DNA of 64,000 nt. Origin: Desulfobacteraceae bacterium (GTDB taxonomy: Bacteria > Desulfobacterota > Desulfobacteria > Desulfobacterales > Desulfosalsimonadaceae). Of the stretch, positions 1,851 through 28,914 are shown piece by piece. The notes under the pieces are model-generated. The model searched no databases and had not been told where the DNA came from. It saw nothing but the letters and a program-made list of their open reading frames with translations. The position numbers were made by a program, and so were the translations under genes. Position 1 is the stretch's first letter. The number at the start of each line of letters is the position of its first letter. The DNA is taken from assembly GCA_014237465.1 (NCBI GenBank), contig JABZFM010000002.1, positions 62,001 to 126,000 of the forward strand. The letters run 5' to 3'.

Positions 1851-1894
1851 GCATGAAAAGCCATTGATTTAAAAAACATGATTTAAAAAATATT

Positions 1895-2070: not shown

Positions 2071-2220
2071 AAGCTTATAGCATATCGCCTGTCAGGATAA
2101 CACCTGATAATTATTTAAAACTTTAGCACTTACCTGCTCTTAAGAAAAGATAATTCAAAAATGCTTTCGCCCCCTGCTCATATTCAATGGACGCAAGTTA
2201 TCAGGGGTGAATCAACATAG

Positions 2221-2365
2221 CCCGGATCTCTCATGAAGAAAATCAATTAAGTTGAAAAAATATGATTTCAATTGGTTATGTCAATGCTGTACACTATCAT
2301 TAAAACAGTCTGTTTCGGCTGTGTATCCTAAAAGCTCATTAATTTTCTTCATGAGAAGTCCGGGA
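2221..2365. repeat. Long inverted repeat upstream of htpG
   Basis: The arms at 2221-2249 (beginning CCCGGATCTCTCATGAAGAA) and 2338-2365 (ending TTCTTCATGAGAAGTCCGGG) are reverse complements over about 28 bases with two or three mismatches, separated by about 88 bp of AT-rich DNA. Its sequence is unrelated to the element at 1895. It ends eight bases before the predicted htpG promoter, so it could influence it or simply be a second transposon-derived palindrome. A smaller inverted pair (CACCTGATAA near 2100, TTATCAGGGGTG near 2198) lies just upstream. Confidence 0.6.
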
Positions 2366-2372
2366 TGGGGGG

Positions 2373-2400
2373 TTGACAAATGAAAAATCACACCCATTAT
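2373..2400 (+). promoter_or_regulatory. Predicted htpG promoter (sigma32-like, overlapping sigma70-like)
   Basis: TTGACA at 2373-2378 is followed after 14 bases by CCCATTAT at 2393-2400. This fits the heat-shock sigma32 pattern (TTGAAA, 13-15 bases, CCCATNT) and also gives a sigma70 reading with an ATTATA/TTATAT -10 at 17-18 bases. HtpG is a classical heat-shock protein, which makes the sigma32 reading attractive. Position relative to the ATG at 2469 leaves a ~60-nt leader. Confidence 0.5.
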
Positions 2401-2468
2401 ATAAAAAAATCCATCCCCAGCCTGTAATAATTTAAATAAATTTAAAAATAGAAATTTAAGGAGTCGAA

Positions 2469-12712: not shown

Positions 12713-12728
12713 TGATTTTCTCCAGCCT

Positions 12729-12830
12729 GTTGCATGGCGTTGCGTAATTGTTGCGCAACATTGTCTATGGTGCATCATTGATGAATTGGTTTAAATTCAG
12801 AATAATACGATTGTTGCAACCATGCAACAA
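12729..12830. promoter_or_regulatory. Cluster of TTGTTGC palindromes, candidate activator binding sites
   Basis: Two palindromes and one half-site: TGTTGCGCAACA (12749-12760, perfect), TTGTTGC-N6-GCAACAA (12811-12830), and TGTTGCATGG at 12729-12738, which is the reverse complement of bases 12820-12829. The 12811 site is about 100 bases upstream of the predicted sigma54 start point, the usual distance for enhancer-type activator sites. The 12729-12760 sites sit just upstream of the activator's own start codon, suggesting autoregulation. Confidence 0.6.
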
Positions 12831-12902: not shown

Positions 12903-12919
12903 TGGCACAATTTATGCAT
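12903..12919 (+). promoter_or_regulatory. Sigma54 (-24/-12) promoter of the Hdr cluster
   Basis: TGGCAC at 12903-12908 is followed after five bases by ATGCAT at 12914-12919. The consensus is TGGCAC-N5-TTGCA, so there is one mismatch in the -12 element and correct GG/GC spacing. Transcription would start near 12928-12930, leaving only a few bases before the ATG at 12936. Confidence 0.6.
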
Positions 12920-12935
12920 TTATGATTTGCAAACC

Positions 12936-13364
12936 ATGAAAACGCTTAAAAAAATAATCATTCTCGTAGAGGGCCTGGAAATGCAGGTATTTTTATCCAC
13001 AGTCCTGCAGGAAGTCTTGTTTACCCCTGTTATTGCAGAATATATTGACGATGCCTTTGAAAAAATCATTACACAAAATCCCTTAGTAATCATCATTGAC
13101 ATGATGATGCCAAAAGAGCAGGGAGTTAAAATGTACCGGCAGCTCAAAACCCATGAAAAATTTAAAACCCTTCCGGTGATCATGCTCTCCACCCTTGCCA
13201 AGGAAGCATTCTTTCAATTCCATAATATTGAATATACTTTGCCCCATCATGGGCTCCCAAAACCGGAAGGGTATCTGCCCAAACCACCGGAAGCTGAAGA
13301 GTTAATTCATACTGTCAAAAGAATTATTAAAAACCAGCCAAAAAGGGAAAATAAATGTCTTTAA
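12936..13364 (+). CDS. Atypical response-regulator receiver protein
   Basis: A 142-residue single-domain protein starting at ATG 12936. It has the receiver fold pattern with Asp55 in VIIIDMMMPKEQG, but the usual acidic pair after strand 1 is Glu12-Gly13 (ILVEGLEM) rather than two acidic residues, and the C-terminal half is altered (HHGLPKPEGYLPKP). Magnesium binding and phosphorylation may therefore be weakened. It is the first gene of the Hdr operon and its stop overlaps the next gene's start by ten bases, so translation is likely coupled. No Shine-Dalgarno is evident; with the predicted sigma54 start the mRNA would be nearly leaderless. Confidence 0.85.
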   Translation: MKTLKKIIILVEGLEMQVFLSTVLQEVLFTPVIAEYIDDAFEKIITQNPLVIIIDMMMPKEQGVKMYRQLKTHEKFKTLPVIMLSTLAKEAFFQFHNIEYTLPHHGLPKPEGYLPKPPEAEELIHTVKRIIKNQPKRENKCL

Positions 13365-16300
13365 GAATCGGATGCTATATTTGCCATTGCGGAATTAACA
13401 TTGCTTTTAAAGTGAGAGTAGAAGAAGTGGCTGAATTTGCAAGGAGCCTTGATGACGTTGCGGTGTCACGGGATTACAAATTCATGTGCTCTGATCCGGG
13501 CCAGGAAATGATTGAAAAAGACATTAAGAATTTTGACCTGAACCGTGTGGTGGTCGCTTCCTGTTCACCCAGGCTCCATGAAAAAACCTTCCAGGCTACT
13601 TGCAAACGGGCAGGATTGAATCCTTATATGTTCCAGATGGCATCAGTCAGAGAACAGGTATCCTGGGTTACCCAAAACGAAGACGAAGCCACTCAAAAAG
13701 CCAAAACATTGATGGCCGGTGCCATAAACCGGGTGAAATACCACCATGAACTTGAAACCCGAAAAGTTGAGGTCCATCCGGATGTTCTGGTAGTGGGCGG
13801 CGGTATTGCCGGTATGCAGGCAGCTCTGGATATTGGAAACGCAGGTCATCAAACTTTTCTGGTTGAAAAATCCACCACCATTGGCGGGCATATGCTCCAG
13901 TTTGACAAAACCTTTCCCACGCTGGACTGTGCAGCCTGCATCGGCACCCCTAAAATGGTGGAAGTGGCACAGAATGACCATATTAAATTATTTTCCTATA
14001 GTGAGGTGATAGACGTTTCAGGATACATTGGCAATTATTCAGTCAAAATACTTAAAAAACCCCGTTATATAAAAGAAAGTCTCTGCACTGGCTGCGGTGA
14101 ATGTACAAAAGCATGTCCTGTGATCTCCCCCAGTGAATGGGATGAATCCTTAGGGGATCGCAAGGCGATTTTCAGAGCCTTTCCCCAGGCAGTTCCCATT
14201 ACTTACTGCATTGATAAAAAAGACAGGGCGCCCTGCGTGGGAGCCTGTCCTGCCCATGTAAATGTTCAGGGATATATCCAGCTTATTAAAAAAAAAGAAT
14301 ATATCAAAGCCACCCAATTAATTATGGAAAAAATACCATTGCCCGGTGTACTGGGAAGGGTCTGTCCCCATCCCTGCGAACTGGAATGCCGGCGCCAGGA
14401 ACTGGATAAACCGGTTGCCATCAGAGATCTCAAGCGCTTTGCAGCCGATCAGATGGATATGACCACTCTTGCGATTCCGGATATTGAAGACCAAACCCAA
14501 AAAGTCGCTATTATCGGCTCCGGCCCTGCCGGGCTGACCGTTGCCTATGATCTGAGATTGAAAGGATATCAGGTCACTGTTTTTGAAGCATCTAAAAAGA
14601 CAGGCGGCATGCTAAGGCTTGGAATCCCTGACTACAGGCTGCCACCAGAAATTCTTGATAATGAAATCGGCTATATTCAAAGAATGGGCGTAGATATCCG
14701 GACAAAGACCCGGTTTGGAACAGATATTACGCTTGCAGATCTGAAAAAGTCAGGATTTTCTTCTGTCTTTTTAGGCATTGGTGCCCATGGTGCCATATCT
14801 TTAGGCATCCCTGGGGAAGATCTTGAAGGAGTGATAGATGCAATCCGGTTTTTAAGGGAAGTAAATCTTGGAGATCGCACCTGTCCGGGGAACGAGGTGA
14901 TTGTGATCGGCGGAGGCAATGTAGCCATTGATGCGATCCGCGTGGCAAAACGGACAGGCTCTAAAAAACTGACCCTGGTGTATCGCCGGACAGAAAAAGA
15001 AATGCCGGCATATGAAGATGAAATTCTGGGTGCCAAAGAAGAAGGTATTGAATTTTTATACCTGACCTCCCCTGTAAAGGTGATTGAAAAACAGGGTAAA
15101 GTGGTTGGTCTGCAATGCATTAAGAATAAGCTTGGAGCGCCGGATGCCAGTGGCAGACAACGACCTGAACCGATCAAAGGATCAGAATTTATTATATCCT
15201 GCGATACTATTATTACAGCCATTGGACAGAAAATAAACCTTTTGAACGACCTGACCAACAATGGCCTTGAATGTACTTCCTCAAACAATATCATTTCAGA
15301 CCCTGACACCATGCAAACCAGTATTCTCCATGTGTTTGCCTGTGGTGATGCTGTGACAGGCGCAGCCACCGTTGTTCAGGCCATTGCCGGAGGTCACAGG
15401 GCGGCCAGGGGCATGCACCACTTCCTTGCCGGTCGTGACATGGCAGCGCTTAAAAATATAGATAATTCATTGCAAGACGTTCAAATGCCTCATTACAAGG
15501 ATATCCCGAAAGGCAGCCCCATAAGGAAGCGACAATTATTAACCCATATGGATGCACAACAACGCTCTGCCTGTTTTGATGAAGTGTCAAAAGGACTTTT
15601 ACCTGAACAGGCTATAGAGGAATCCGATCGCTGTCTTAATTGTGGAGAATGCTGTGAATGCTGTGAATGTGTCTCAGTTTGTGAAGCCAATGCCATTGAC
15701 CATACCATGAAAGGAGAGATTGAAGAAATAAAGGTGGGCAGCATTATTCTGGCCACAGGATATGATGTACTTGATCCGGGACCAATAAAACAATTCGGTT
15801 ATGGCACCTACCCCAATGTATACACCAGTCTCGAATTTGAGCGTATCAGCAATGCCACAGGCCCTACCGGAGGAGAAATCCTGATCCGGGACAATTCCCT
15901 TGCATTTACCCGAGAACCCGAAAGCGTGGCCCTGCTTCACTGCATTGGCAGCCGGGATGTGAACTACCACGAATACTGCTCCAGAGTCTGTTGCATGTAT
16001 GCCTTAAAGTATTCCCACCTGATCAAGGAAAAAACCGGACATGATACCAAAGTATATGATTTTTATATTGATATGCGCTGCTTTGGTGAAGGGTATGAAG
16101 AATTTTACCGAAGATGTCAGGAAGAAGGCACCCATTTTATCCGGGGCAAGGCTTCAGAAATTACCCATGTGGCCCAAACCCCGGAAGAGCAGGATAAACT
16201 CATTGTCCTTGCGGAAGACACTCTTTTGGGAATGCCGGTTCGCATTCCTGTTGACATGGTGGTTTTATGCGTGGCCATGCAGGCAAGAGAAGATGCCCTG

Positions 16301-16765
16301 GATGTAGGAAGAATCTTTGGAGTGAATCTGGGTGCGGATGGTTTTTTCTTGGAAGAGCACCCCAAACTGGGGCCTTTGAACACGGCAACTGATGGTGTGT
16401 TTATTGCCGGCGCCTGCCAGTCTCCAAAAGATATACCGGATACGGTTGCCCAGGCCTCTGGCGCTGCTGCCAAAGCTCTGTCTCTCGCTACCCGCGGGCA
16501 GGTTCTGGTGCCATCCACCATTTCCTGGATTGATCCTGACATCTGTGCCGGATGCCAGATATGTATCGATCTGTGCCCCTATACAGCCATTGAATTTGAT
16601 CATAGAAGGCAGATTTCTGTCATCAATGAAGCAGTTTGTAAGGGATGTGGAAGCTGTTCCGGTTTCTGTCCCAGTGGTGCCGCCCAGGTCAGACATTTTC
16701 AGAAAAAACAAATTTTTGCGGAATTTGAGGGCATCATGGATGCCGTCAATACGGTCGGCATATAA
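13355..16765 (+). CDS. hdrL: HdrA-like flavoprotein fused to a GltD/NfnB-like NAD(P)H module (HdrL type)
   Basis: 1136 residues. The order is: an HdrA N-terminal domain (1-140), the FAD-binding HdrA core beginning VLVVGGGIAGMQAALD (about 144), a ferredoxin segment (CTGCGECTKACP), then a complete GltD-like insertion (about 290-700) with its own cysteine motif (CVGACPAHVNVQGY), FAD motif IIGSGPAGLTVAYDL and NAD(P)-motif VIGGGNVAIDA, then the rest of HdrA (CSRVCCMYALKYSHL) and two C-terminal [4Fe-4S] motifs (CAGCQICIDLCP, CKGCGSCSGFCP). HdrA flavin bifurcates electrons; the GltD-like part would exchange electrons with NAD(P)H. Similar fusions (HdrL) are known in sulfate reducers. Exact partners here are inferred from the neighbouring hdr and mvhD genes. 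Confidence 0.93.
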   Translation: MSLRIGCYICHCGINIAFKVRVEEVAEFARSLDDVAVSRDYKFMCSDPGQEMIEKDIKNFDLNRVVVASCSPRLHEKTFQATCKRAGLNPYMFQMASVREQVSWVTQNEDEATQKAKTLMAGAINRVKYHHELETRKVEVHPDVLVVGGGIAGMQAALDIGNAGHQTFLVEKSTTIGGHMLQFDKTFPTLDCAACIGTPKMVEVAQNDHIKLFSYSEVIDVSGYIGNYSVKILKKPRYIKESLCTGCGECTKACPVISPSEWDESLGDRKAIFRAFPQAVPITYCIDKKDRAPCVGACPAHVNVQGYIQLIKKKEYIKATQLIMEKIPLPGVLGRVCPHPCELECRRQELDKPVAIRDLKRFAADQMDMTTLAIPDIEDQTQKVAIIGSGPAGLTVAYDLRLKGYQVTVFEASKKTGGMLRLGIPDYRLPPEILDNEIGYIQRMGVDIRTKTRFGTDITLADLKKSGFSSVFLGIGAHGAISLGIPGEDLEGVIDAIRFLREVNLGDRTCPGNEVIVIGGGNVAIDAIRVAKRTGSKKLTLVYRRTEKEMPAYEDEILGAKEEGIEFLYLTSPVKVIEKQGKVVGLQCIKNKLGAPDASGRQRPEPIKGSEFIISCDTIITAIGQKINLLNDLTNNGLECTSSNNIISDPDTMQTSILHVFACGDAVTGAATVVQAIAGGHRAARGMHHFLAGRDMAALKNIDNSLQDVQMPHYKDIPKGSPIRKRQLLTHMDAQQRSACFDEVSKGLLPEQAIEESDRCLNCGECCECCECVSVCEANAIDHTMKGEIEEIKVGSIILATGYDVLDPGPIKQFGYGTYPNVYTSLEFERISNATGPTGGEILIRDNSLAFTREPESVALLHCIGSRDVNYHEYCSRVCCMYALKYSHLIKEKTGHDTKVYDFYIDMRCFGEGYEEFYRRCQEEGTHFIRGKASEITHVAQTPEEQDKLIVLAEDTLLGMPVRIPVDMVVLCVAMQAREDALDVGRIFGVNLGADGFFLEEHPKLGPLNTATDGVFIAGACQSPKDIPDTVAQASGAAAKALSLATRGQVLVPSTISWIDPDICAGCQICIDLCPYTAIEFDHRRQISVINEAVCKGCGSCSGFCPSGAAQVRHFQKKQIFAEFEGIMDAVNTVGI

Positions 16766-16975: not shown

Positions 16976-17398
16976 ATGGCAGAACATGAACCATTGATTA
17001 TTGCATTTGTGTGTAACTGGTGCACCTATACGGCAGCAGATCTGGCCGGAACTTCCAGACTGAGCTACCCTAAAAACATCCGGTTAATACGGGTGATGTG
17101 TACAGGAATGGTTGATCCCCAATATATTATCAAGGCATTTTTAGAAGGTGCGGACATGGTTATTGTCAGTGGATGCCACCCGGGAGACTGCCACTATATC
17201 AATGGAAATTACAAGGCCCGGCGACGGATAAAATTGCTCAAGGAGATCCTGCCCAAATTCGGAATTGAAAAACAACGCTTAAAACTGACCTGGATCGGGG
17301 CAAGTGACGGTATTGAATTTGCCAAGACCATGCAGGAGCTGGTGATTCAGGCAAAAACCATCGGGCCAAACCCGGCAAGAACCGGCGCGGGTTTATAG
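16976..17398 (+). CDS. mvhD: MvhD/FlpD-type [2Fe-2S] electron-transfer subunit
   Basis: 140 residues, the normal length of the stand-alone MvhD delta subunit. Conserved cysteines are all present: FVCNWC, RVMCTGMVDP and GCHPGDCHYINGN. In methanogens MvhD links hydrogenase to HdrA, and in other anaerobes the same domain links formate dehydrogenase or other donors. Here no hydrogenase follows, so the donor is open; the next gene, an FrhB/FdhB-like protein, is a candidate partner. Ribosome binding site AGAGGAAA is close to the ATG. Confidence 0.93.
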   Translation: MAEHEPLIIAFVCNWCTYTAADLAGTSRLSYPKNIRLIRVMCTGMVDPQYIIKAFLEGADMVIVSGCHPGDCHYINGNYKARRRIKLLKEILPKFGIEKQRLKLTWIGASDGIEFAKTMQELVIQAKTIGPNPARTGAGL

Positions 17399-17468: not shown

Positions 17469-18617
17469 ATGATGGCAAACACAAGCTTTCTCAATGTTGA
17501 CAATGACAATGTCCTCTTGTCCATACAAAAATTTTTAAAATCCATTTTGGATCTGAATGATATTGAAGCAATACTTGCCCCTTTACACAAAAAAGACGGG
17601 AAAAATATCATGCCGGTATTCATTGCGGATCCGACGCTTCTGAATGATGTAGACCCCCTGGCACCGGCATTTGCCATGAATGCAGCCAAACTTGTATCAA
17701 AGCTGACACATAAGCCAATGGGTAAAAAAATTGCCGTGGTCTTAAGATCCTGTGAGATAAGGGCCTTAATTGAACTGGTCAAGCTAAAACAGGCTTACCT
17801 GGAAGACATTGTCATTATCGGTTTTGACTGTCTTGGCACCTATACCAATAAGAACCTGGCTTTTCTCATGGCATCTGATACAACAGATCTAACCCAACGA
17901 TTCTGTGAAAACGCCCTTGCAGGAAAAGAACCTCCTATAGAAGGCGGCCCGAACCTGTCTCCCGCATGCAGGGCCTGTGAATATCCGGTTCCGGAAAATG
18001 CAGATATTTTAATCGGGTTGTTGGGTCTGGATATTAAAAAGCAGGTTTTGCTCCAGGCATTGACTGAAAAAGGTAATGCCCTGTTTGAAAATCTATCGTA
18101 CACAGAATCAGAAGAACCCCCGGGCAGAAAAAAGGTCATTTCAGAAGTTATTTCCAAAAAGATTGAATTCCGGGACAAGATGTTTGAAACAACCCATAAG
18201 GCCACCAATACACTTGAAAAACTATCAGATTATTTTGCAAGCTGCATCAACTGTTACAATTGCAGAGTCGCATGCCCGGTTTGTTATTGCAGGGAATGTG
18301 TTTTCAACACAGATGTGTTTGACCATGATCCTTATCAGTATATGCAATGGGCCAAACGAAAAGGAGCCGTTAAATTGCCGGCGGATACAAATTTTTACCA
18401 TATCACCCGTCTGGCCCACATAAGCCTTAACTGTGTCGGGTGCGGTCAGTGCTCCAATGCATGTCCCAATGATATCCCTGTTATGGAACTTTTCAAATAT
18501 GTGGCCAACAATACTCAGGCAGCGTTTGAGTATGAGGCAGGGAAAGATATGGACCAGCCCCCGCCATTATCCGTGTTTAAGGAAGAGGAATATCTTGATG
18601 TGGTGGGTATCAATTAA
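17469..18617 (+). CDS. FrhB/FdhB-like iron-sulfur oxidoreductase subunit
   Basis: 382 residues. The first ~200 residues resemble the N-terminal half of coenzyme F420 hydrogenase/formate dehydrogenase beta-family proteins (VVLRSCEIRALIELVKL, IGFDCLGTY). Then come a cysteine-rich segment (CINCYNCRVACPVCYCRECVF) and a second [4Fe-4S] motif (CVGCGQCSNACPNDIP). It probably passes electrons between a soluble donor and the Hdr/MvhD unit. The GGAG ribosome binding site lies four bases before ATG 17469, and a second ATG follows immediately. Whether it binds a flavin or F420-like cofactor cannot be told from the sequence. Confidence 0.82.
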   Translation: MMANTSFLNVDNDNVLLSIQKFLKSILDLNDIEAILAPLHKKDGKNIMPVFIADPTLLNDVDPLAPAFAMNAAKLVSKLTHKPMGKKIAVVLRSCEIRALIELVKLKQAYLEDIVIIGFDCLGTYTNKNLAFLMASDTTDLTQRFCENALAGKEPPIEGGPNLSPACRACEYPVPENADILIGLLGLDIKKQVLLQALTEKGNALFENLSYTESEEPPGRKKVISEVISKKIEFRDKMFETTHKATNTLEKLSDYFASCINCYNCRVACPVCYCRECVFNTDVFDHDPYQYMQWAKRKGAVKLPADTNFYHITRLAHISLNCVGCGQCSNACPNDIPVMELFKYVANNTQAAFEYEAGKDMDQPPPLSVFKEEEYLDVVGIN

Positions 18618-18711: not shown

Positions 18712-21700
18712 ATGGACAAAAACAACAGCAATGCCCTTGTTGTGGGCGCAGGAATCAGCGGTATCCGGACTGCACTGGATCTGGCACAACAGGATTTTCA
18801 TGTCACGCTTATTGATAAAAGCCCGGCCATTGGCGGTATCTTAAGCCAATTGGATTACCAGTTCCCCTCCAACCATTGCGGCATGTGCAAAATGCTGCCC
18901 CTGATCAACCGGGATGCATCATCCCAGTTTTGTCTGCGCAAAGGACTGTTCCATGAAAACATCCATCTATTGCTCTCATGCGAACTAAGCGGCCTTGCCG
19001 GAGAAGCCGGGAACTTTACAGCACGACTGCGCCAGAAACCCACCTGGGTGGACCCGGATCTGTGTGTGGGCTGCGGTCTGTGCGAAAAAGTCTGCCCCCA
19101 GGATATACCGGACTGTTTTAACGAAGGGCTCTCCTCCCGCAAGGCCATCTATCTTCCCGTACCCCATGCCATTCCCAATGCTTATGTCATTGACCTTGCA
19201 GCCTGCAACCGCTGCGGTGCCTGTGAAGAGGTATGTCCCACCAATGCCATCCAGTTGTCCCAGTCCAACCGGAAGGCATTTAATATTCTGGTGGTGGATG
19301 ATGAACTCAGTATCAGAGATTCATTAAAAGAATGGCTTGAAGAAGAGGATTTCTCTGTGGACATGGCGGTTTCAGGAGCGGATGCGCTTACAAAACTCTC
19401 ACAAAAACCTTATCAGCTCATGCTCACTGATATCAAAATGCCTCAAATGGGTGGTGTAGAACTCCTTAAAAAAGCAAAAAAAGACCATCCAAACCTCAGC
19501 GTGGTCATGATGACAGCCTATGCCACGGTGGAAACCGCAGTGGAGGCCATGAAAATCGGCGCACTGGATTATCTTATCAAACCCTTTGATCCGGACACCC
19601 TGGTGCCCATGGTTATCAGGATATTTCAGGATATTGAAGCCACAAAAGATCGGGAAATAACTATTGATACAATTATTTTCAGCACGGGTACTTCTTTTTA
19701 CGATCCAGCTGATGAAAAAAATATCTTTGGGTATGGCATTTATCCCAATGTGCTGACCAGCATTGAATTTGAACGAATGATCAGCCACACTGGGCCAAGT
19801 CAAGGAGCGCTGTGCCGTCTTGACCATAACCCGAATGATCAGAATGACCCGCCCGTTAAAAAAATAGCCTGGATACAATGTGTGGGATCTAGAAACATCC
19901 AGCAAAATGCGGATTTCTGCTCCAGTATCTGCTGTATGATTGCTATAAAAGAAGCGGTTCTGACCAGGGAAATCTCAAAGGGCAAGATAGATACGACCAT
20001 TTTTTATATGGATATGCGAACCTTTGGAAAATCATTTCAACGCTATTATGATACGGCCCTGAGTGAGCATGGCGTCCGATTTGAACGATGTAAAATCGAC
20101 TCCATCTCCCTTGATAAAAAAACCAATGATCTGATCATCAGGTATATTTCCAAAAACGGTGAATTAAAAAAAGAATTATTTGATATGGCAGTCCTGTCCA
20201 CGGGGCAGCGCCCGAGCTATAAAACCGCCCAACTGGCAAAAATCTGTGATCTGTCCACTAATCCCTGGGGATTTATACAGACTTTGCCCTTTTCACTTAC
20301 CCTCACCGCAAAAGAAGGCATTATTGCCGGCGGTTCTGTTACAGGGCTCAAAGATATATCCCAATCCCTTATCCAGGCATCTGCTGCTGCACAGAATGCC
20401 GGTTGCATCATCCATTCCAAAGGCAGTAAAAAATTAGAAGCACCCATTGAAAACAAAGGAGTTTACCGGGATGTTTCCCGTGAACCTGTAGATCTTTTAA
20501 TGGTTATATGTACCTGCAAAGAACGAGTAACCAGGTTTATTGACCCAAAAATCCTAACTGAAAAATTCATACAGGATCCTTGCATCAGCAATGTCATTTT
20601 TTTGGACAATATCTGCACAGACAATGGCTGGCAGGAACTTGAACAGATCGTAATGGATTGCCGGCCCAACCGCCTGCTGATTGGCGCCTGTCACCCTTAT
20701 CTATATATCCGGAGAATCAGGGAACTTGCCAAAAAATGTACCCTTGATCCGGTATTTATTGATGTCGTGGATATCATGACCGGTGTTTTTCAGGAAAATC
20801 CTGACTCTCAAAACGAACTTAACTCAACCGGCTTTCACATAACAGGTATTTTAAATGCCGGAGCAGCTGCATTGAAACAGGCTCAATATCAAACATCACA
20901 TAAAATACCAGTACACCCAAGCGCTTTGATAATCGGTGGCGGCATAGCCGGAATGACAGCTGCTTTGGGCATTGCCGACCAGGGATATGAAGTGGCATTG
21001 GTTGAAAAAACAGATCATTTGGGCGGAAACTTAAACTGGCTCAAACAGACCATTGACGGGCTGTCCTGTGAAAATCTCCTGGAAGAAACCATTGCCAGGG
21101 TCACAAAACAGCCTTTGATCCGGATATTTCTTAACAGTCAAATCATCAGTTGCACCGGATATACCGGGCAGTTCAAAACCATTATTGAAGATGGAGAAAA
21201 ACAGCCTGTCACCATTGAACATGGCGCTGTCATACTTGCCACCGGTGGCAATGAAGCGAGAACACAATCCTTTAATTACGGCACGCAAAATTCAGTCGTC
21301 ACCCAGAAAGATCTTGAAATCAGACTGGCCGATAAATCTATTGACCCCAAAAAACTTGACAGCATTGCCATGATTCAGTGCGTTGATTCCAGGCAGGAAC
21401 CCAGAAACTACTGTAGCAGGGTATGCTGCCCGACTGCCCTGAAACAGGCCCGGTTTATTAAGGAGCAGAACCCTGAGGCTGATATTTATTTTCTGTACAG
21501 AGATATGATGACCTGCGGTTTTACAGAGACTTTTTTCACACAGGCCCGCAAAGACAATATCATTTTCATTTCATATGAGCCGGATAATCTGCCACAGGTC
21601 GAAGAGATTGAAGGAAAAATAATTATTAATGCCGTTGAACCGGTTTTGGGACGACCAATAGAGATAAATGCAGACCTGGTTGTTCTTGCCACAGGAATCA

Positions 21701-22173
21701 CGCCTGAATTTCCAGACACTCTGGCTTCCATACTGGGTATCATGCCGGATATGGACAGGTTTTTCCAGGAGGCTGACCCCAAATGGCGACCTCTGGATGC
21801 CATAAAAGAAGGTATTTATGCCTGTGGCATTGTTCATTCTCCCGGCTCCATTCCGGAATCCATTGCCACGGCCCAGGCAGCCGCCCAGAGGGCCTTGAAC
21901 ATTATTTCCAGACCGGTTCTTGCTTCTGCTCAAATAGTTGCCCTGGTCCGCCACAGTTTATGTTCACTTTGCCAAAGGTGTATCGACACCTGCCCTTATG
22001 GGGCCCGGATGCTCAATACGGATGAAACCAAAGTACTGGTAAACGAAGCCATGTGCCAGGGATGCGGCGCCTGTGCAGTCATATGTCCCAATAATGCATC
22101 CGTGCTGCAGGGATATTCAGGACAACAGATGCTGGGTGTTATTGATGCTGTTTTTGAAGATTTGCTTAATTAA
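18712..22173 (+). CDS. hdrA: Tandem HdrA flavoprotein with an embedded response-regulator receiver domain
   Basis: I place the start at ATG 18712 (after GGAAGAGG), giving 1153 residues. Module 1 begins with the FAD motif LVVGAGISGIRTALDL and two [4Fe-4S] motifs (CVGCGLCEKVCP near 118, CNRCGACEEVCP). Directly after these, residues ~190-312 are a full receiver domain: ILVVDDELSIRD, phosphoacceptor Asp240 in LTDIKMPQMGG, MMTAYA and LIKPFDP. The HdrA fold then resumes (FGYGIYPNVLTSIEFER). A second HdrA module starts near 734 (ALIIGGGIAGMTAALG) and ends with ferredoxin motifs (CSLCQRCIDTCP, CQGCGACAVICP). An electron-bifurcating subunit with a built-in phosphorylation switch is unusual. The receiver closely resembles that in the Usp fusion at 23706. 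Confidence 0.93.
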   Translation: MDKNNSNALVVGAGISGIRTALDLAQQDFHVTLIDKSPAIGGILSQLDYQFPSNHCGMCKMLPLINRDASSQFCLRKGLFHENIHLLLSCELSGLAGEAGNFTARLRQKPTWVDPDLCVGCGLCEKVCPQDIPDCFNEGLSSRKAIYLPVPHAIPNAYVIDLAACNRCGACEEVCPTNAIQLSQSNRKAFNILVVDDELSIRDSLKEWLEEEDFSVDMAVSGADALTKLSQKPYQLMLTDIKMPQMGGVELLKKAKKDHPNLSVVMMTAYATVETAVEAMKIGALDYLIKPFDPDTLVPMVIRIFQDIEATKDREITIDTIIFSTGTSFYDPADEKNIFGYGIYPNVLTSIEFERMISHTGPSQGALCRLDHNPNDQNDPPVKKIAWIQCVGSRNIQQNADFCSSICCMIAIKEAVLTREISKGKIDTTIFYMDMRTFGKSFQRYYDTALSEHGVRFERCKIDSISLDKKTNDLIIRYISKNGELKKELFDMAVLSTGQRPSYKTAQLAKICDLSTNPWGFIQTLPFSLTLTAKEGIIAGGSVTGLKDISQSLIQASAAAQNAGCIIHSKGSKKLEAPIENKGVYRDVSREPVDLLMVICTCKERVTRFIDPKILTEKFIQDPCISNVIFLDNICTDNGWQELEQIVMDCRPNRLLIGACHPYLYIRRIRELAKKCTLDPVFIDVVDIMTGVFQENPDSQNELNSTGFHITGILNAGAAALKQAQYQTSHKIPVHPSALIIGGGIAGMTAALGIADQGYEVALVEKTDHLGGNLNWLKQTIDGLSCENLLEETIARVTKQPLIRIFLNSQIISCTGYTGQFKTIIEDGEKQPVTIEHGAVILATGGNEARTQSFNYGTQNSVVTQKDLEIRLADKSIDPKKLDSIAMIQCVDSRQEPRNYCSRVCCPTALKQARFIKEQNPEADIYFLYRDMMTCGFTETFFTQARKDNIIFISYEPDNLPQVEEIEGKIIINAVEPVLGRPIEINADLVVLATGITPEFPDTLASILGIMPDMDRFFQEADPKWRPLDAIKEGIYACGIVHSPGSIPESIATAQAAAQRALNIISRPVLASAQIVALVRHSLCSLCQRCIDTCPYGARMLNTDETKVLVNEAMCQGCGACAVICPNNASVLQGYSGQQMLGVIDAVFEDLLN

Positions 22174-22180
22174 TTTAACC

Positions 22181-22762
22181 ATGAATATTATGAATATAGG
22201 AAAAACCATTTTGAATACAACAACCACAAAAAATCCTCTGGCCCAGGTAAAAGAAATGGTACAATCCTGTATCCAGTGCGGCACCTGTACTGCTTCGTGT
22301 CCCAATGCATTTGCTATGGATCATACACCACGCAAGCTTTGGCGGATGGTTCAGGCAGATAACGCCGATGCTGTTTTCAAGAGTAAAACCTTTATCTTAT
22401 GTTCTTCCTGTTATTACTGCACCCTCAGGTGCCCCAGGGGACTTCCCCTGACCCGGGCAATGGGGCTTTTAACCCAAATGGCTCAAGTCCAAAACCCGGA
22501 ACCTTTTAAACAGAGCCATCGATTTTATCAGGAGTTTATACAAAGTGTCCGCCGTCACGGTCGGGTAAATGAAATCGAATTTATGTCTTTATTTTTCTTG
22601 TCCATGAAAAATCCGATTCTGCCTTTTAAGTATGCATCTTTGGGGATAAAGCTCCTGCAGAAAAAGAAAGTATCCATACCCAATCCCAATATATGGAAAA
22701 AAGATCAAAACGGGCTGGAAAAAATATTCAATAAAGTCAGAGAACTGGAGGAACAATCATGA
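22181..22762 (+). CDS. hdrC: HdrC-like iron-sulfur subunit
   Basis: 193 residues from ATG 22181; further Met codons three residues on, and a TTG at 22211 after AGGAAAA, are alternatives because the Shine-Dalgarno is weak. Two classic HdrC motifs are present, CIQCGTCTASCP and CSSCYYCTLRCP, which bind two [4Fe-4S] clusters. The remainder is helical. HdrC carries electrons between HdrA and the catalytic HdrB. It overlaps hdrB by four bases (ATGA), so the two are translationally coupled. Confidence 0.93.
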   Translation: MNIMNIGKTILNTTTTKNPLAQVKEMVQSCIQCGTCTASCPNAFAMDHTPRKLWRMVQADNADAVFKSKTFILCSSCYYCTLRCPRGLPLTRAMGLLTQMAQVQNPEPFKQSHRFYQEFIQSVRRHGRVNEIEFMSLFFLSMKNPILPFKYASLGIKLLQKKKVSIPNPNIWKKDQNGLEKIFNKVRELEEQS

Positions 22763-23679
22763 AATATTTCTACTACCCGGGCTGCTCTCTTGAGGGCACT
22801 GCCAAGGAATATCATATTTCCACAACTTCTCTGATGAAGGCGCTGGGGGCTGAACTTATCGAAATTGAGAGTTGGAGCTGCTGTGGCGCAAGCGCTGCTG
22901 AATCAGTCAGTGATCTGCTTTCATATGTCCTGCCGGCACGAAACCTTGCCATTGCTGAAAAAATGAGCGCTGAAACCAGCGAAACTCTTGATATATTGGT
23001 ACCATGCAGCGCCTGTTACCTGAATCTGAAAAAAGTAACCGAAGATATTAAAACTAATCTCCAATTATTGGATACCATAAACACTGTCCTCAAAGAAGAC
23101 AACCTTGAGCTTAAAAACAAACTTCAAGTGAGACATCTTCTGGATATCCTTGTCAATGATATGGATATCAACTTTTTCAAGACAGAAGTTAAACACTTTT
23201 TTGAAGATTTTTCCGTGGCACCCTATTATGGATGCCAGTGCCTCAGGCCCTATCATGTGTTTGACAATCCTGAGAAACCAAAATCCATGGAACCTCTTAT
23301 TTTGGCAACAGGAGCCACAATTCACACCTGGGAAATGGGCCCCAAATGCTGCGGAGCATCCCATATGAGTACTAAACCCGAGGTGGGTCAAACCTTGGTG
23401 GGGAATATATTAAAAAGTGCCAGGGGAGCTGACATGATTATAACAGTCTGTCCCATGTGCCAGATGAATCTGGAGGCATTCCAGAAAAAAATCAGCCAGG
23501 CCTGCAATGAGTCATTCAACATGACGATCCTGTATCTTCCCCAGTTTATGGGAATGGCCATGGGATTGTCTGAAAAGGATATCCGGCTGGATTTAAACCT
23601 TAGTATCACCAAAAAATTTAAAACAAAGTATCTTACCATGACCTCTAAACCCGTAATGCTGATGACGGCATCGGCATAA
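22759..23679 (+). CDS. hdrB: HdrB-like CCG-domain subunit
   Basis: 306 residues with two CCG (cysteine-rich) domains. The first includes YPGCSLEG, SWSCCGAS and PCSACYLN; the second YYGCQCLRP, GPKCCGAS and CPMCQMN. These bind the noncubane [4Fe-4S] clusters that split disulfides in methanogen HdrB. All key cysteines are present, so it should be catalytically competent. The true electron acceptor in sulfate reducers is unknown (a DsrC-type protein or another disulfide has been suggested for related clusters). A membrane anchor is absent, pointing to a soluble HdrABC. Confidence 0.94.
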   Translation: MKYFYYPGCSLEGTAKEYHISTTSLMKALGAELIEIESWSCCGASAAESVSDLLSYVLPARNLAIAEKMSAETSETLDILVPCSACYLNLKKVTEDIKTNLQLLDTINTVLKEDNLELKNKLQVRHLLDILVNDMDINFFKTEVKHFFEDFSVAPYYGCQCLRPYHVFDNPEKPKSMEPLILATGATIHTWEMGPKCCGASHMSTKPEVGQTLVGNILKSARGADMIITVCPMCQMNLEAFQKKISQACNESFNMTILYLPQFMGMAMGLSEKDIRLDLNLSITKKFKTKYLTMTSKPVMLMTASA

Positions 23680-23705: not shown

Positions 23706-25019
23706 ATGTTTAGAAAAATTTTACTGGCAACAACACCCATTGATGAGAGCAAAGGGGCATCAAACCTGTCCTTTGCTCTGGCGCGGCCGAGTAGATCTAA
23801 ACTCTTTATTTTCTATGCATATGGTATCACTGAAGAGGGATGGAGCAGCATCCGGTATCTGTTGCCTTCAGGAAAAGTGGATGAAGTTAAAAAAGACTTA
23901 AAAAAACATTATAAAAATGAGTTGTCCAAAATTAACAATTATCAGGTGGAAGTGGTTCCCGGAGTTCCCCATGATGAAATCTTAAGATTTGCAAGAAAGG
24001 AAAACGCAGATCTCATTGTGATGGGTCCTCACAAGATAGACAAAAATCAGCCCAGGCTTTGGGGATTAACCGGAAGTACTCTGCAAAAGGTCAGTTTAAG
24101 GGCACGTTGTCCTGTCATGATCGTACCTTCAGATATGCCCAAAATTTATCCATCAGGTGATATCGAGCTGTCTACTGAAGATCGTAAAAAATACAAAATC
24201 CTTGTGGTGGATGATGAATTATCTTTAAGGGATTCATTAAAGGAATGGCTCGAAGAAGAAGGATTTACTACGGGTATGGCGGAATCCGGCCAGCAGGCCT
24301 TGGACATGTTAGCAAAAGAAGACTATCACCTGATGCTCACAGATATCAAGATGCCGGGCATGGACGGTGTTGAGCTCTTAGACCGTGCGAAAAAAGAACA
24401 CCCGGACTTGGGAGTCGTCATGATGACTGCTTATGCCACCATTGATACGGCCGTGGATGCCATGAAAATAGGTGCCCATGACTATTTAATCAAGCCTTTT
24501 GATCCGGAGTTACTGATCCCCAAAATTCTGAAACTCCACCAGGATTTTGAGGTAACAAAAGGACGTCTGAAAATGGCATTTGCCAGTATTGTCCTGGCTA
24601 CGGATTTTAGCGAACCTGCATACTGTGCTTTTGATTTTGCCATGAAGATTGCCCAGTATTATGATGCAAAACTACATATATTCCATGCCATTCCCATATC
24701 TGATGATAAGGAGCTTCCTCCCCAGTCTGTTATTGAAAAAAACATCGAAGAAACCATTGACCGCATGAAAAAAAAATATGGGGCAGACTTGAAAAATGTT
24801 GTAGAATATTCGCTGGAATCATGGGAAGGCACTCCCCATGTGGAAATTCTTAAATATGCCCGGTGGAAGCATGCTGATCTGATCATTATGGCGCATCACT
24901 CCAAAGGAAAAGACCCGGAAAAAGCCGTACTCGGCTCCAATGTGATAAAAGTGGCCAGCGGGTCCAAGTGCCCGATTCTCAGCATAAACCGGGATTTTAT
25001 TCCCAGCTGCGGGACTTAA
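23706..25019 (+). CDS. Universal stress protein-receiver-universal stress protein fusion (Usp-REC-Usp)
   Basis: 437 residues in three parts. Residues 1-148 are a UspA-like domain (KILLATTPIDES at the start, LIVMGPHK, and CPVMIVPSD at the end). Residues ~163-290 are a receiver with ILVVDDELSLRD, phosphoacceptor Asp213 in LTDIKMPGMDG and LIKPFDPE. Residues ~293-432 are a second Usp domain (IVLATDFSEPA, LIIMAHHSKGKDPEKAVLGSN). The receiver matches the HdrA-embedded receiver through most of its length (ILVVDDELS.RDSLKEWLEEE...), so one is a copy of the other. It directly follows hdrB and has a good AAGGAAAA ribosome site. It probably senses nucleotide or redox state and shares a kinase with HdrA. 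Confidence 0.93.
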   Translation: MFRKILLATTPIDESKGASNLSFALARPSRSKLFIFYAYGITEEGWSSIRYLLPSGKVDEVKKDLKKHYKNELSKINNYQVEVVPGVPHDEILRFARKENADLIVMGPHKIDKNQPRLWGLTGSTLQKVSLRARCPVMIVPSDMPKIYPSGDIELSTEDRKKYKILVVDDELSLRDSLKEWLEEEGFTTGMAESGQQALDMLAKEDYHLMLTDIKMPGMDGVELLDRAKKEHPDLGVVMMTAYATIDTAVDAMKIGAHDYLIKPFDPELLIPKILKLHQDFEVTKGRLKMAFASIVLATDFSEPAYCAFDFAMKIAQYYDAKLHIFHAIPISDDKELPPQSVIEKNIEETIDRMKKKYGADLKNVVEYSLESWEGTPHVEILKYARWKHADLIIMAHHSKGKDPEKAVLGSNVIKVASGSKCPILSINRDFIPSCGT

Positions 25020-25031
25020 CGGAGGATTATT

Positions 25032-26609
25032 GTGCATCAGGATATGAACCGGAAGATGAATCGAGATATAAAATGGGAAATCGTTTTAATTGACGATGAA
25101 AAAGGCATCCGCAAAGTGATGGCCATTGCCTTGAAAGACTCTGGATACTCGGTACTAACTGCTGAAAACGGAAATGCAGGTGTCAAGCTGTGCACGGAAT
25201 CCTCGCCCCAGCTGGTGATTACGGATATCAAAATGCCGGGAATGGATGGCCTGCAGGTTCTTGAAATCCTTAAAAAAGAGCTCCCGGATATTGAAGTCAT
25301 TGTCATGACTGCTTTTGGAGATATTGACACCGCCATTCGGGCCATACAGCTTGATGCATCGGATTTTATAACCAAACCCATTAATGACGATGCGCTTGCT
25401 CTGGCCCTTGACCGGGCCAAAGAACGTTATCTTTCAAAAAAACAGCTCAAGGAATATACATCACTTCTTGAAACCGGGTGGTCTCGTGCCACAAAAGAGC
25501 TTTTAAATAATTTCTCATTTCAAAAACAGATTATTGAAAGTTCCATCAACGGAATTATTGGCTGTGGAGCTGATGAAAAAATTAAAATTTTTAATAGCAG
25601 CATGATTAAAATGCTTGGGTATACAAAAAGCGAAGTGGTGGGAAAAAAATACTTAAGAGAGCTGCTTGCAAAAGGAGAAGAAAAACGGATAAAAGAAGCC
25701 CTTGAAAGTGAGAGCCATGGAGGAATCAATAAAATAGCTCTGATGGAATCCGTGCTTCTGGATCATGAATCTTTGACAATACCGGTACGAATATCTGCAA
25801 GTGTACTGTTTGAGGAAGGTAATCAAAACGGAATATTGATCTCTGTAAGAGATTTAAGAGAACTTCGAAAAATCGAAAGAAAAATGGCTGACCAGGAACG
25901 AATTTTGCATCAGGACAAAATGATGTCCCTTGGAAAATTAGCAGCAAGCGTGGTTCATGAAATTAATAATCCATTATCCGGAATATTAAATTATCTTCGT
26001 CTGATGACCAAAATAATAACCAAAGGTTTGACTCCTGAGAAAATTGAAAAATTCTCAAAATACCTGGATATTGCAACCAAAGAAACCGCCAGATGCTCCC
26101 AGATTGTCTCAAATCTGTTAACCTTTTCAAGAAAATCCTCCTTGTCGTTTGAACCTGTTGATGTCAAAGAACTGATCCACCGCTGCACACTTATAAGTCA
26201 ACATAAACTAGAATTACAAAATATTACACTTTCAGTCAGCGTAGATTCAGATATTCCTTTTATCATGGTGGATGCCAATCAAATCCAGCAATGCCTGATC
26301 AACCTTATATTCAATGCAATTGATGCCATGCCCGATGGAGGAACCATTGATCTTTTGGGCAAATACGATTCAGAAAAACAGAAGGCTATTATTTATGTCA
26401 AAGACACTGGTACGGGTATTGATCAAAAAGACCTTCCCCACATCTTTGAACCTTTTTTTACCACCAAAGACGAAGGATATGGTGTAGGGCTAGGACTGTC
26501 AACGGTATATGGCATCATGGAACGTCACAACGGATCTGTCTTAGTGGAGAGTGCCCCAGGAAAAGGAACCCAATTTATCCTTGAGTTTAATACATTGGCT
26601 AAGGAATAG
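25032..26609 (+). CDS. Cytosolic hybrid kinase (REC-PAS-HisKA-HATPase)
   Basis: 525 residues starting at GTG 25032 with GGAGG seven bases upstream. An N-terminal receiver (about 15-135: IVLIDDEKGIRK, ITDIKMPGMDGL, FITKPIND), a PAS domain (about 165-285), HisKA with His309 in VVHEINNPLSGI, and HATPase motifs (NLIFNAIDAM, DTGTGI, GLGLSTVYGI). It has no membrane segment. It lies 12 bases behind the Usp fusion and is a natural candidate to phosphorylate the receivers of HdrA and the Usp fusion. Confidence 0.94.
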   Translation: MHQDMNRKMNRDIKWEIVLIDDEKGIRKVMAIALKDSGYSVLTAENGNAGVKLCTESSPQLVITDIKMPGMDGLQVLEILKKELPDIEVIVMTAFGDIDTAIRAIQLDASDFITKPINDDALALALDRAKERYLSKKQLKEYTSLLETGWSRATKELLNNFSFQKQIIESSINGIIGCGADEKIKIFNSSMIKMLGYTKSEVVGKKYLRELLAKGEEKRIKEALESESHGGINKIALMESVLLDHESLTIPVRISASVLFEEGNQNGILISVRDLRELRKIERKMADQERILHQDKMMSLGKLAASVVHEINNPLSGILNYLRLMTKIITKGLTPEKIEKFSKYLDIATKETARCSQIVSNLLTFSRKSSLSFEPVDVKELIHRCTLISQHKLELQNITLSVSVDSDIPFIMVDANQIQQCLINLIFNAIDAMPDGGTIDLLGKYDSEKQKAIIYVKDTGTGIDQKDLPHIFEPFFTTKDEGYGVGLGLSTVYGIMERHNGSVLVESAPGKGTQFILEFNTLAKE

Positions 26610-26643: not shown

Positions 26644-28914
26644 GTGATAAAACAGCTTACAACACTTAAGAAAAGTCTTGCCTATAAACTGATATTTGCG
26701 GTGGGTCTGACCCTTTTGATCATGATTCTATTAGGGGCGTTTTTTATTATCAAATATGAAAAAAATAAAGCCATGGATGGCATAACGGCTGAAGCAGACC
26801 GCCTGAGCAGCACAATTCTTTTAGGTGCCCATTATGCCATGATGCTGAATGCAAGAGACGATATCACTCATATTATTCAGAATATTGCCAAACAACCGCA
26901 AATTGAAAATATCCGTATTTTCAACAAAGCCGGTGAAATCCATTTCTCAAATATCAATGAAGAGGTGGGGAGTGTTACCAATATCAAGGCTGAAGCCTGT
27001 TATGTCTGTCATAAGACAGAGCCGCCTTCCGAATATTTAGAACTAAATGAAAGAAAACGAATCATCATGTCTCCAAGGGGATATCGGCTCATGGGTATCA
27101 TCAGTCCCATTTTCAATGAGCCAGGATGTTCAGAGTCCTGTCATTTTCATCCCAAGGACAAAATAGTTCTGGGCGCTCTGGATGTTGTTATTTCCCTTGA
27201 GCAAACCGACGCTAAAATAGCTTTTTATGAAAAAGGTCTGCTTTTTTTCGCTTTTTGTATAGTTTTTATCTGTTCGTCCATCATTGGTATTTTTGTACTG
27301 CGGTTTGTAAATCAGCCCATTAAAAAACTGATCCGTGGAACCCGGCAGATCAGTAAAGGTTCCTACGGTAGGATAGAGATTATCCAGGACGGAGAAATCA
27401 AACAGCTCGCCGATGCCATAAACCATATGGCAGAGCAGATTGAAATTAAACAAAATGTGCTCAACGAACAACGAACAGAATATCAGAACCTCTTTGAGGC
27501 GGTTCCATGCCTTATCACGGTTCAAAATAAAAATTTTCAACTGCTGAAATACAACCGTGAATTCAATGACCGATTTCACCCTAAAGAGAGAGCTCTTTGC
27601 TTCCAGGCATATAAAAACCAGTCTGAACCGTGCGAACAATGCCCGGTTGCGGAAACTTTCAGGGACGGCAAGCCACACCACAGTGAGCAAAGCGGAATTT
27701 CAAAAAACGGAAATCCCACTTACTGGACCCTTCGAACCGCCCCGATCAAAAATCGGGAAGGGATGGTCACAGCAGTCATGGAAATTTCTGTGGATATCAC
27801 CCAGATTCGTTTACTGGAAAAAGAGGTCCGCAAATCAGAAGAAAAGTACAGGGCCATATTTGATAATATTCCCAATCCATTGTTTGTACTGGAACAAGAA
27901 AACTTGCTAATTATTGACTGTAATGCCAGTGTCGAATCAGTGTATGGTTTCACCAAACAGGAAACCTTAAACCGATCCTTTGAAGACTTTTTCGATCCCG
28001 AAATTCAAACTTCTATTATTGAAAAGATTAAAAGCGTTGAATCTATCAGTAAGGTTCGCCAGATCGGAAAAAACGGAAAAATTATTTTTACAAATATCCA
28101 TGTCTCCCCTTCAGAATACCCCAGCCACAAGGTTCTTTTAGTCAATACCACGGATATCACAAAACGGCTCATCGCTGAACAACAGCTCATTCAGGCCAGC
28201 AAAATGGCGACCCTGGGCGAAATGGCAACCGGGATTGCCCATGAACTAAATCAGCCACTCTCGGTTATTAAAAGCGCCAGCAATTTCATCACTAAAAAAG
28301 CAAAGCTAAATGAGATCATCCCCCAAGACATCATGACCACCATGACAGAGGAAATTGACGGCCAAGTCGACAGAGCTTCCAAAATCATCAGTCACATGAG
28401 AGAGTTCGGCCGAAAATCCGATGTAATCAAGGAAAAGGCACAGGTAAATAATGCATTAATAAAAGCTTTTGATATTTTCCGTGAGCAGCTGAAACTTCGT
28501 CAGATTGAAGTGATCCAGAATCTTCAAGAAGACCTGCCTCGGATACTGGCAGATGAAAATCGCCTGGAGCAGGTATTTATCAATTTGCTGATCAATGCCA
28601 GGGATGCCATTGAAGAGCATGCTGGAAACAGCCTGTACGCTGCTAAAGAAGCCAAGCAGATTTTTCTGACAACCAAAACATCTGGCAACTGTGTCGCCAT
28701 TGAAATCGAAGATACCGGGAACGGCATTCCAGCCACAATTGCCGACAAAATTTTCGAGCCTTTTTTTACGACCAAAGATGTAGGCAAGGGGACCGGCCTT
28801 GGCCTGTCCATCAGTTATGGCATCATCCAGGATTATGGCGGAACCATTACCGTGACCTCAGGACGCCTGGGCGGTGCTTTGTTTATCATCAAATTCCCTA
28901 TTATAACTGCCTAA
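26644..28914 (+). CDS. Membrane sensor histidine kinase with a periplasmic heme-c-like motif
   Basis: 756 residues starting at GTG 26644 after AGGAG. A transmembrane helix (about 14-36) leads to a periplasmic domain with CYVCHK (Cys119, Cys122, His123), a canonical heme-c attachment motif, and CSESCH (Cys162, Cys166, His167), a CxxxCH variant. A second transmembrane helix (about 195-218), HAMP, two PAS domains (the first with CEQCPV), HisKA with His533 in AHELNQPLS, and a HATPase domain ([28 protein letters not shown]) follow. A heme or redox sensor feeding the Hdr-associated phosphorelay is the likely role. Last gene of the run; the next gene converges. Confidence 0.93.

Follow-up and report, generated by a model that had tools for sequence, protein, structure and literature searches.

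A receiver domain embedded in a tandem HdrA-like protein of Desulfobacterota, and its possible role as a phosphorylation switch

We analysed a stretch of 64,000 nucleotides (the window) from a Desulfobacteraceae bacterium (assembly GCA_014237465.1, contig JABZFM010000002.1, positions 62,001 to 126,000; genome G000 of our sample, 5.09 Mb in 70 contigs), in which one gene codes for a tandem HdrA-like protein that has a complete two-component receiver domain (REC) embedded in its chain, hereafter HdrA-REC. The same architecture recurs across Desulfobacterota, where the receiver is conserved as much as the iron–sulfur (Fe-S) part of the enzyme and its gene is often linked to that of a sensor kinase with heme motifs. 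On this sequence evidence we lean towards the view that a kinase phosphorylates the receiver and thereby tunes electron exit through the ferredoxin arm, arm docking or partner binding of an HdrA complex, in which case a core energy enzyme of many sulfate-reducing bacteria may be controlled directly by a sensor.

Architecture and predicted fold

The reading frame of HdrA-REC is unbroken from TTG 18688 or ATG 18712 to 22173, with no stop or frameshift; residue numbers refer to the 1161-amino-acid (aa) form that begins at the TTG unless the ATG form (1153 aa) is named. Pfam Response_reg (PF00072) matches residues 200–309 with an E value of 4.5e-30 (104.5 bits, cut-off 30.2), preceded by a Fer4 match at 166–189 and with pyridine-nucleotide/FAD (FAD/NAD) domains on both sides. 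Against the solved HdrA 5odc, residues 14–193 align with HdrA 144–313 and residues 323–485 with HdrA 318–472, so that the receiver replaces about four HdrA residues where the chain exits the inserted ferredoxin domain. It stands after the second [4Fe-4S] motif of that domain and before the strand resuming the first flavin domain, and not, as in a classical response regulator, at the N-terminus ahead of a separate output domain. The preliminary description of this DNA had proposed a complete receiver with its acceptor at Asp240, inserted into a tandem HdrA and not appended to it, and each of these points held: Asp240 of the ATG count is D248, within the Pfam match; the Pfam order and the 5odc alignment both make the domain internal, between residues 193 and 323; and the alignment and the two halves of the structural model agree on the tandem.

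With a CheY fold, an Asp pair, an acceptor Asp, Thr and Lys, the domain has the full phosphorylation quintet of a two-component receiver (D204, D205, D248, T276, K298), and its top NCBIfam matches are the receivers of AtoC, FixJ and NtrC. The surrounding protein has the TrxR-like FAD domain with inserted ferredoxin of the HdrA-like family. Half 1 comprises this flavin domain and the inserted ferredoxin (5odc alignment and model), and half 2 an HdrA-like N-terminal domain followed by a flavin domain that lacks the ferredoxin insert and by a C-terminal ferredoxin domain. The cysteines of the HdrA N-terminal domain and the Cys197 site (located by counting along the 5odc alignment) are both present, divided between the halves. 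In our alignment A1, C118, C124, C128, C165, C168, C171 and C175 (ATG numbering) are invariant columns, as is C59, and C600, C602, C635 and C660 are nearly so. Scores fall below the NCBIfam HdrA/HdrA2 equivalog cut-offs (636/1100, 507/1400 and 490/1300 bits); the protein is thus a relative of the CoB-CoM HdrA/HdrA2 and not that equivalog.

An AlphaFold2 model (68 sequences; one chain, without cofactors or partners; mean pLDDT 89.8, pTM 0.90) contains a full five-strand receiver at about residues 191–310, whose last helix (294–310) leads through three residues into strand 314–318 (ATG numbering). The receiver (188–312) superposes on 3crn_B at 1.1 Å over 125 residues (Z 22.8) and half 1 (4–571) on 8rwn_A at 1.8 Å over 422 residues. 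Half 2 (591–1150) fits 7bkd_A at 3.3 Å over 554 residues and 5odc_A at 10.7 Å over 552, a sign that the domains are arranged differently. In the model, the HdrA core is as in its relatives despite the insert, and the receiver fold is normal.

Occurrence and conservation

Other HdrA proteins with an internal receiver, which the preliminary description suggested looking for, do recur across Desulfobacterota. In an evenly drawn sample of 291 genomes of the order, 91 had a receiver match with an E value no higher than 1e-42. For four of these (G021, G093, G094, G144) the sole such match is the gene of a USP-REC-USP protein, a receiver between two universal-stress (USP) domains; in the remaining 87, the window genome included, the match lies in HdrA-sized or contig-cut frames, those fetched and scanned being HdrA and the others assigned from frame size only. 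A sample of the phylum gave matches at 1e-38 in 10 of 395 genomes; the nine besides the window genome have frames of 1150–1191 aa, and five of them are outside the order. The gap from Fe-S part to receiver is 7–9 aa in all 76 measurable distinct members (the window's own copies, L001 and L122, are excluded from counts of other members), and a join or frameshift at a receiver edge, which was looked for, is excluded by the presence of the same junction in other assemblies.

Receiver-less relatives have 8–14 residues joining the two HdrA parts, and many keep the order HdrL-FlpD-FrhB-HdrA. Among the best 80 of 235 loci, those labelled Chloroflexota, Myxococcales or Desulfofundulus that were read lack a receiver. 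A tree of the HdrA part, built by a quick method from 77 rows (40 with a receiver, 3 with a decayed one and 34 without; L063, L066 and L067 are among the rows left out), has two label changes for three states, the minimum possible. Within this tree sample the receiver was probably gained once and decayed once, with no outright loss, a history that the sequences support weakly.

Of 78 other members, 76 have the acceptor Asp and 71 the full quintet. Exceptions are the decayed receivers of L065, L073 and L082 (the first two labelled Pseudodesulfovibrio and Desulfovibrionaceae), L072 (Gly at the acceptor), L140 (Glu in place of the pair's second Asp), L064 (an Arg within the pair and a gap at the Thr) and L146 (cut by a contig edge). 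The switch pair Thr276 and Tyr295 occurs in all 72 rows examined, a set that omits L064, L065, L072, L073, L140 and L146 as decayed, cut or atypical; in these rows, alpha1 and alpha4 positions that vary among other receivers are also conserved. Median identity to the window protein over 77 members is 68.0% for the receiver and 67.6% for the Fe-S part, against 53.2% for the middle flavin part, 37.2% for the bridge and 53.5% for the C half (the last resting partly on short pieces, as some members are contig-cut). Receiver identity is higher than that of the middle part in 72 of the 77 and higher than that of the Fe-S part in 42. Between the window and L057, the ratio of non-synonymous to synonymous substitution (dN/dS) is 0.041 for the Fe-S part, 0.052 for the receiver and 0.157 for the middle flavin part; the more distant pairs with L066 and L123 have synonymous sites close to or beyond saturation. 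By these sequence measures, selection maintains the receiver as a switch, and the domain is conserved as much as the Fe-S part.

The three decayed receivers remain inside HdrA at about full length (Table 1), that of L065 with a weak PF03709 match (E 0.024). At these loci a USP-like protein follows hdrB; that of L065 contains two Usp stretches without a receiver, and for L073 similarity rows show two USP parts. The retention of decayed receivers suggests that the domain also became structurally built in.

Some further frames stand apart. An HdrA-REC in L199 (9766–13218; G054, one contig) is split by one in-frame TGA, for which selenocysteine, a nonsense mutation and an error are candidates. L003 1456–3171 (contig C24) was considered as an HdrA–receiver fusion and rejected, being a 572-aa REC-spacer-REC protein; an RnfC-like frame (named by eye from the letters) lies downstream of it, and a relative lies upstream of the HdrA-REC cluster in L078 (3–1316). 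L078 17879–19645, at first tallied as HdrA-REC, was dropped as a REC-REC-HdrA N-terminal protein. With two receivers ahead of the HdrA N-terminal half, it represents a second mode of receiver–HdrA joining; the gene after it presumably resembles NuoE.

Sensor kinases and gene neighbourhood

The cluster runs receiver-like protein, HdrL, FlpD, FrhB, HdrA-REC, HdrC, HdrB, USP-REC-USP, REC-PAS-kinase and HAMP-PAS-kinase (Table 1). Pfam confirms both kinases named in the preliminary description, at 25032 and 26644; from gene linkage, the latter is the probable cognate kinase of the HdrA receiver and the former a possible cognate or relay kinase. We compared loci whose downstream DNA extends for 6 kb or more, the window excluded, by a criterion that includes similarity to the window's kinases. 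A relative of the heme-motif kinase lies downstream at 15 of 19 receiver loci, none of three decayed loci and one of 18 receiver-less loci (Fisher's test, receiver against receiver-less, 6.7e-6, kinship ignored). For a relative of either window kinase the counts are 17 of 19, none of three and seven of 18 (p = 0.0019), with the kinase on the opposite strand at four of the seven receiver-less loci. Both heme motifs are found in 15 of the 19 fetched kinases of this type, the other four being short frames of 523–563 aa. Such linkage would fit phosphate transfer from a histidine kinase to the receiver.

The receiver of the USP-REC-USP protein is 68% identical to that of HdrA-REC and its closest relative in the genome, the next receiver being 47% identical. 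The protein occurs in 13 of the 291 genomes of the order. Its gene adjoins hdrB (and hdrC where the contig allows) in the window genome, G137 (whose contig is apparently that of L066, the gene layout being alike), G221, G170, G290, G094, G202 and G238, and lies beside a heme-type kinase without hdr genes in G093 and G038. Among the four of the 13 without an HdrA-REC match, listed above, G094 carries the gene next to hdrB at the end of a contig; in G021 and G144 the contig stops near the gene, and the available stretch showed no Hdr gene.

To place the two receivers, we used a tree of 141 single domains (75 HdrA, 12 USP and 54 other; 123 columns) from the window genome and fetched loci only, with L064, L065 and L073 left out. 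The HdrA and USP receivers form one group with support 88/90, under the tool's 95/80 mark, and 53 of the 54 others fall outside it. The one inside, L173, is a mislabelled USP row (a contig-cut USP-REC-USP of G148 labelled ‘other’) and adds an artificial label change. USP rows stand at two places within the group, with HdrA row L129 inside the second. That the HdrA receiver is a young cassette copied from the USP protein was rejected, because HdrA-REC occurs in many genomes without a USP-REC-USP match and HdrA rows dominate the group.

Where 6 kb or more of upstream DNA is available (21 loci), HdrL, FlpD and FrhB precede HdrA-REC in 19. Of the other two, L072 has a partial HdrL, and L069 (Desulfonema magnum) has none of the three upstream: there hdrC and hdrB lie downstream, and HdrL, FlpD, FrhB and the usual kinases are not within about 9 kb on either side, so a receiver-bearing HdrA can be encoded apart from the remaining set. 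A stand-alone receiver-like protein similar to the first cluster gene is found upstream in many related loci, and HdrCB follows HdrA-REC in many loci, not all. From its HdrA, HdrB, HdrC, FlpD and FrhB companions, the complex would be expected to bifurcate electrons.

Several features of these loci are recorded here in their own right. The two HdrAs of the one operon bear different inserts in the same region, GltD/NfnB-like in HdrL and a receiver in HdrA-REC. In L042, L043, L047 and L048, no hdrCB follows HdrA-REC, and HdrL is instead preceded by a protein of about 770–780 aa; the L042 copy (1451–3799) has duplicated Fe-S and CCG domains by Pfam and is HdrD-like. In the window, a sigma-54-like promoter with one mismatch (12903–12918) lies just ahead of the first cluster gene, opposite a divergent PAS/sigma-54 activator-like gene (10982–12778). 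A sigma-54 promoter scan gave 29 matches with at most two mismatches against 36 expected, which is not above chance and therefore gives no evidence.

Table 1. Features of the HdrA-REC cluster in the window, and HdrA genes with decayed receivers at other loci.
Feature	Position	Strand	Basis
Stand-alone receiver-like protein, first cluster gene	12927..13364	+	Pfam
HdrL: HdrA with NfnB/GltD-like insert in inserted ferredoxin domain	13355..16765	+	Pfam, NCBIfam
FlpD/MvhD-like subunit	16976..17398	+	Pfam
FrhB/FdhB-like subunit with Fe-S motifs	17469..18617	+	Pfam
Tandem HdrA-like protein with embedded receiver	18712..22173	+	Open reading frame, Pfam, 5odc alignment, alignment A1, model
Receiver domain, residues 198–322	19279..19653	+	Pfam, complete beta-alpha repeat in model
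Predicted phospho-acceptor Asp codon, D248 (D240 from ATG)	19429..19431	+	Quintet alignment
HdrC-like subunit	22133..22762	+	66 bits, under HdrC equivalog cut-off 160
HdrB-like subunit	22759..23679	+	154 bits, under HdrB equivalog cut-off 345
USP-REC-USP protein	23706..25019	+	Pfam
REC-PAS-histidine kinase	25032..26609	+	Pfam
Sensor kinase: CxxCH and CxxxCH c-heme-like motifs in sensor part, HAMP, PAS, HisKA, HATPase	26644..28914	+	
HdrA with decayed receiver of about full length, L065	8833-12426		
HdrA with decayed receiver of about full length, L073	8941-12495		
HdrA with decayed receiver of about full length, L082	8983-12423		

Possible roles of the receiver and comparison with known systems

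From the architecture, conservation, gene linkage and predicted fold we infer phosphorylation, the identity of the kinase, the signal, the composition of the complex, the direction and the effect on activity as follows. A tandem HdrA would have acquired an NtrC-type receiver, probably in a single early event in Desulfobacterota, at the strand by which the chain passes from the inserted ferredoxin domain to the first flavin domain, and this receiver would since have been kept as a working phosphorylation switch. The kinase with two c-heme motifs (26644), alone or via the REC-PAS-kinase (25032), would phosphorylate D248, the presumed signal being the redox state outside the cytoplasm. Phosphorylation would alter the alpha4-beta5-alpha5 face of the receiver. 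This change would tune the passage of electrons out to ferredoxin, the docking of the mobile donor arm or the binding of partners, and hence the activity of an HdrL-FlpD-FrhB-HdrA-HdrCB complex. Since USP-REC-USP has a receiver of the same type, one kinase may serve both proteins. A narrower version, in which a heme-sensing membrane kinase phosphorylates the bifurcating flavoenzyme itself and gates its low-potential exit, with USP-REC-USP as a second output of the signal, we put forward more tentatively, as a possibility that we do not quite expect to hold.

Helix alpha5 passes through three linker residues into the strand re-entering the flavin domain, which would put the switch's point of action at the base of the ferredoxin arm. 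In methanogen HdrA, electrons are expected to leave through the inserted ferredoxin domain, and transfer seems to be gated by a mobile arm to which the N- and C-terminal HdrA domains belong (PMC12350162); applied to the tandem layout, this would put the receiver on the half owning the exit and the arm on the other half. The preliminary description had supposed that phosphorylation could change flavin or cluster geometry and so gate bifurcation directly. Gating by phosphorylation is favoured by the insertion, the conserved quintet and Thr/Tyr pair and the kinase linkage; distortion of the flavin site is disfavoured, as the model keeps the HdrA core, and exit gating, arm docking or partner binding seems preferable.

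Several observations weigh against a kinase-driven switch that was gained once. Four of the 19 receiver loci lack a relative of the heme-motif kinase downstream, and at two of these, L054 and L069, none of the searched kinases was found in 9 kb; two of the 15 linked kinases are on the opposite strand (L052, L059). The linkage statistic ignores kinship, its similarity criterion is biased towards loci close to the window, and the contrast is weaker for relatives of either kinase (17 of 19 against seven of 18). Two of the three decayed loci do have a kinase, encoded on the other strand some 4.3 kb upstream. The branch splitting receiver-less from receiver-bearing HdrA has a support of only 30, because the group of L080, L101, L102 and L151 is not firmly placed. 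Finally, the decayed receivers of L065, L073 and L082 and the Gly-acceptor receiver of L072 stay in place, so the domain can persist without phosphorylation.

Other roles can be proposed for the same domain. The phosphorylated receiver might serve as a recruitment platform that docks a ferredoxin partner, USP-REC-USP or a membrane complex, with no allostery on HdrA chemistry. It lies next to the domain to which electron-exit partners bind in methanogen complexes (PMC12350162), and USP-REC-USP is encoded alongside in some genomes; however, the latter is found in far fewer genomes of the order than HdrA-REC (13 of 291), which speaks against docking through that protein, and we regard recruitment as unlikely. 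We think it rather improbable that the receiver is a structural or assembly module, a rigid wedge or oligomerisation surface to which phosphorylation is irrelevant. The three receivers with decayed active sites kept at about full length fit such a role, as does the receiver-derived wing required for decamer formation in certain decarboxylases (PMC8503589), but the intact quintet of 71 of 78 members, the Thr/Tyr pair in every row examined and the lack of a downstream kinase at all three decayed copies argue against it. A comparably low probability attaches to outward signalling, with HdrA as a sensor whose redox state alters the receiver phosphate, competing with or draining the kinase of a nearby sigma-54 regulator. 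A kinase and a receiver-sigma54 regulator do stand close behind HdrA at L042, L068 and L078, and the receivers near the HdrA/USP group include the regulators of L042, L068, L046 and L094 (fork 95/84); however, the regulator of L078 falls elsewhere in that tree, limited as it is to receivers of the window genome and fetched loci, and fusion fixes receiver and enzyme at 1:1, which would be usual for an output and not for a sink. An assembly chimera or gene-fusion artefact has no point in its favour and is ruled out, its probability being negligible, because identical architecture and junction recur in many other genomes.

Control of HdrA electron splitting is usually discussed as gene expression or thermodynamics. 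HdrA complexes set the electron split between ferredoxin and other acceptors in anaerobes, and if the receiver is indeed a phosphorylation switch, the output of a two-component system would be a core energy-conserving redox enzyme and not a promoter, and a large iron-sulfur flavoenzyme would join the known receiver outputs. HdrA-REC is conserved across many families of one order and also beyond it, often tied to a heme-motif sensor kinase. A receiver at the ferredoxin arm would make direct signal control of bifurcation testable by one point mutation, and loci without a receiver, with a working one and with a decayed one offer a ready natural comparison.

HdrA of methanogen HdrABC (5odc, 7bkd, 8rwn) shares with the window protein the TrxR-like FAD domain, the inserted and C-terminal ferredoxins and the N-terminal domain; unlike it, the window protein has two halves in one chain and a receiver between the inserted ferredoxin and flavin domains. 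Tandem HdrA with complementary loss of Cys197 and the N-terminal domain is known (PMC9012536). The tandem HdrA3/HdrA4 of anaerobic methanotrophic archaea (ANME) and Moorella MetFV-HdrABC-MvhD show the same complementary split: in the window protein, the Cys197 site is retained in half 1, from which the N-terminal domain is missing, and half 2 is the opposite, with no conserved Cys there (by eye). The word ‘receiver’ does not occur in the available text of the tandem-HdrA paper (PMC9012536). The HdrL or NfnB-inserted type of HdrA (HdrA9-11) is likewise known (PMC9012536, PMC2702500) and also has a large insert in the inserted ferredoxin domain, which is a pyridine-nucleotide oxidoreductase and not, as in the window HdrA, a receiver.

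Locus VIII of Desulfobacterium autotrophicum HRM2, described in 2009, resembles the present cluster in having tandem hdrL/hdrA4 with mvhD, fdhB and hdrB/hdrC, and a figure legend of the same paper lists response regulator, histidine kinase and CheY-like genes, locus unstated (PMC2702500). Compared through the available text, which lacks the word ‘receiver’, the HRM2 hdrA4 protein may or may not carry one. In Desulfococcus multivorans, hdrA2 lies beside hdrBC and mvhD, a receiver being unmentioned in the part of the paper available (PMC5109826). No description of a receiver in HdrA was found in the literature on receivers or signalling in Hdr that we covered, most subscription papers and all supplements lying outside that coverage.

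Among the sources available to us, the nearest precedent met is the N-terminal receiver wing of the extended ornithine/lysine/arginine decarboxylases (PMC8503589), likewise a receiver-derived domain fused to a metabolic enzyme. That wing (PF03709) is N-terminal and has an assembly role; the HdrA receiver is an internal insertion with its acceptor residues intact, and PF03709 is absent among the Pfam matches listed for the window protein (25 of 30). Tandem HdrA, HdrL and the gene cluster were already known; new to the literature covered here is a putative signalling switch inside this known enzyme class.

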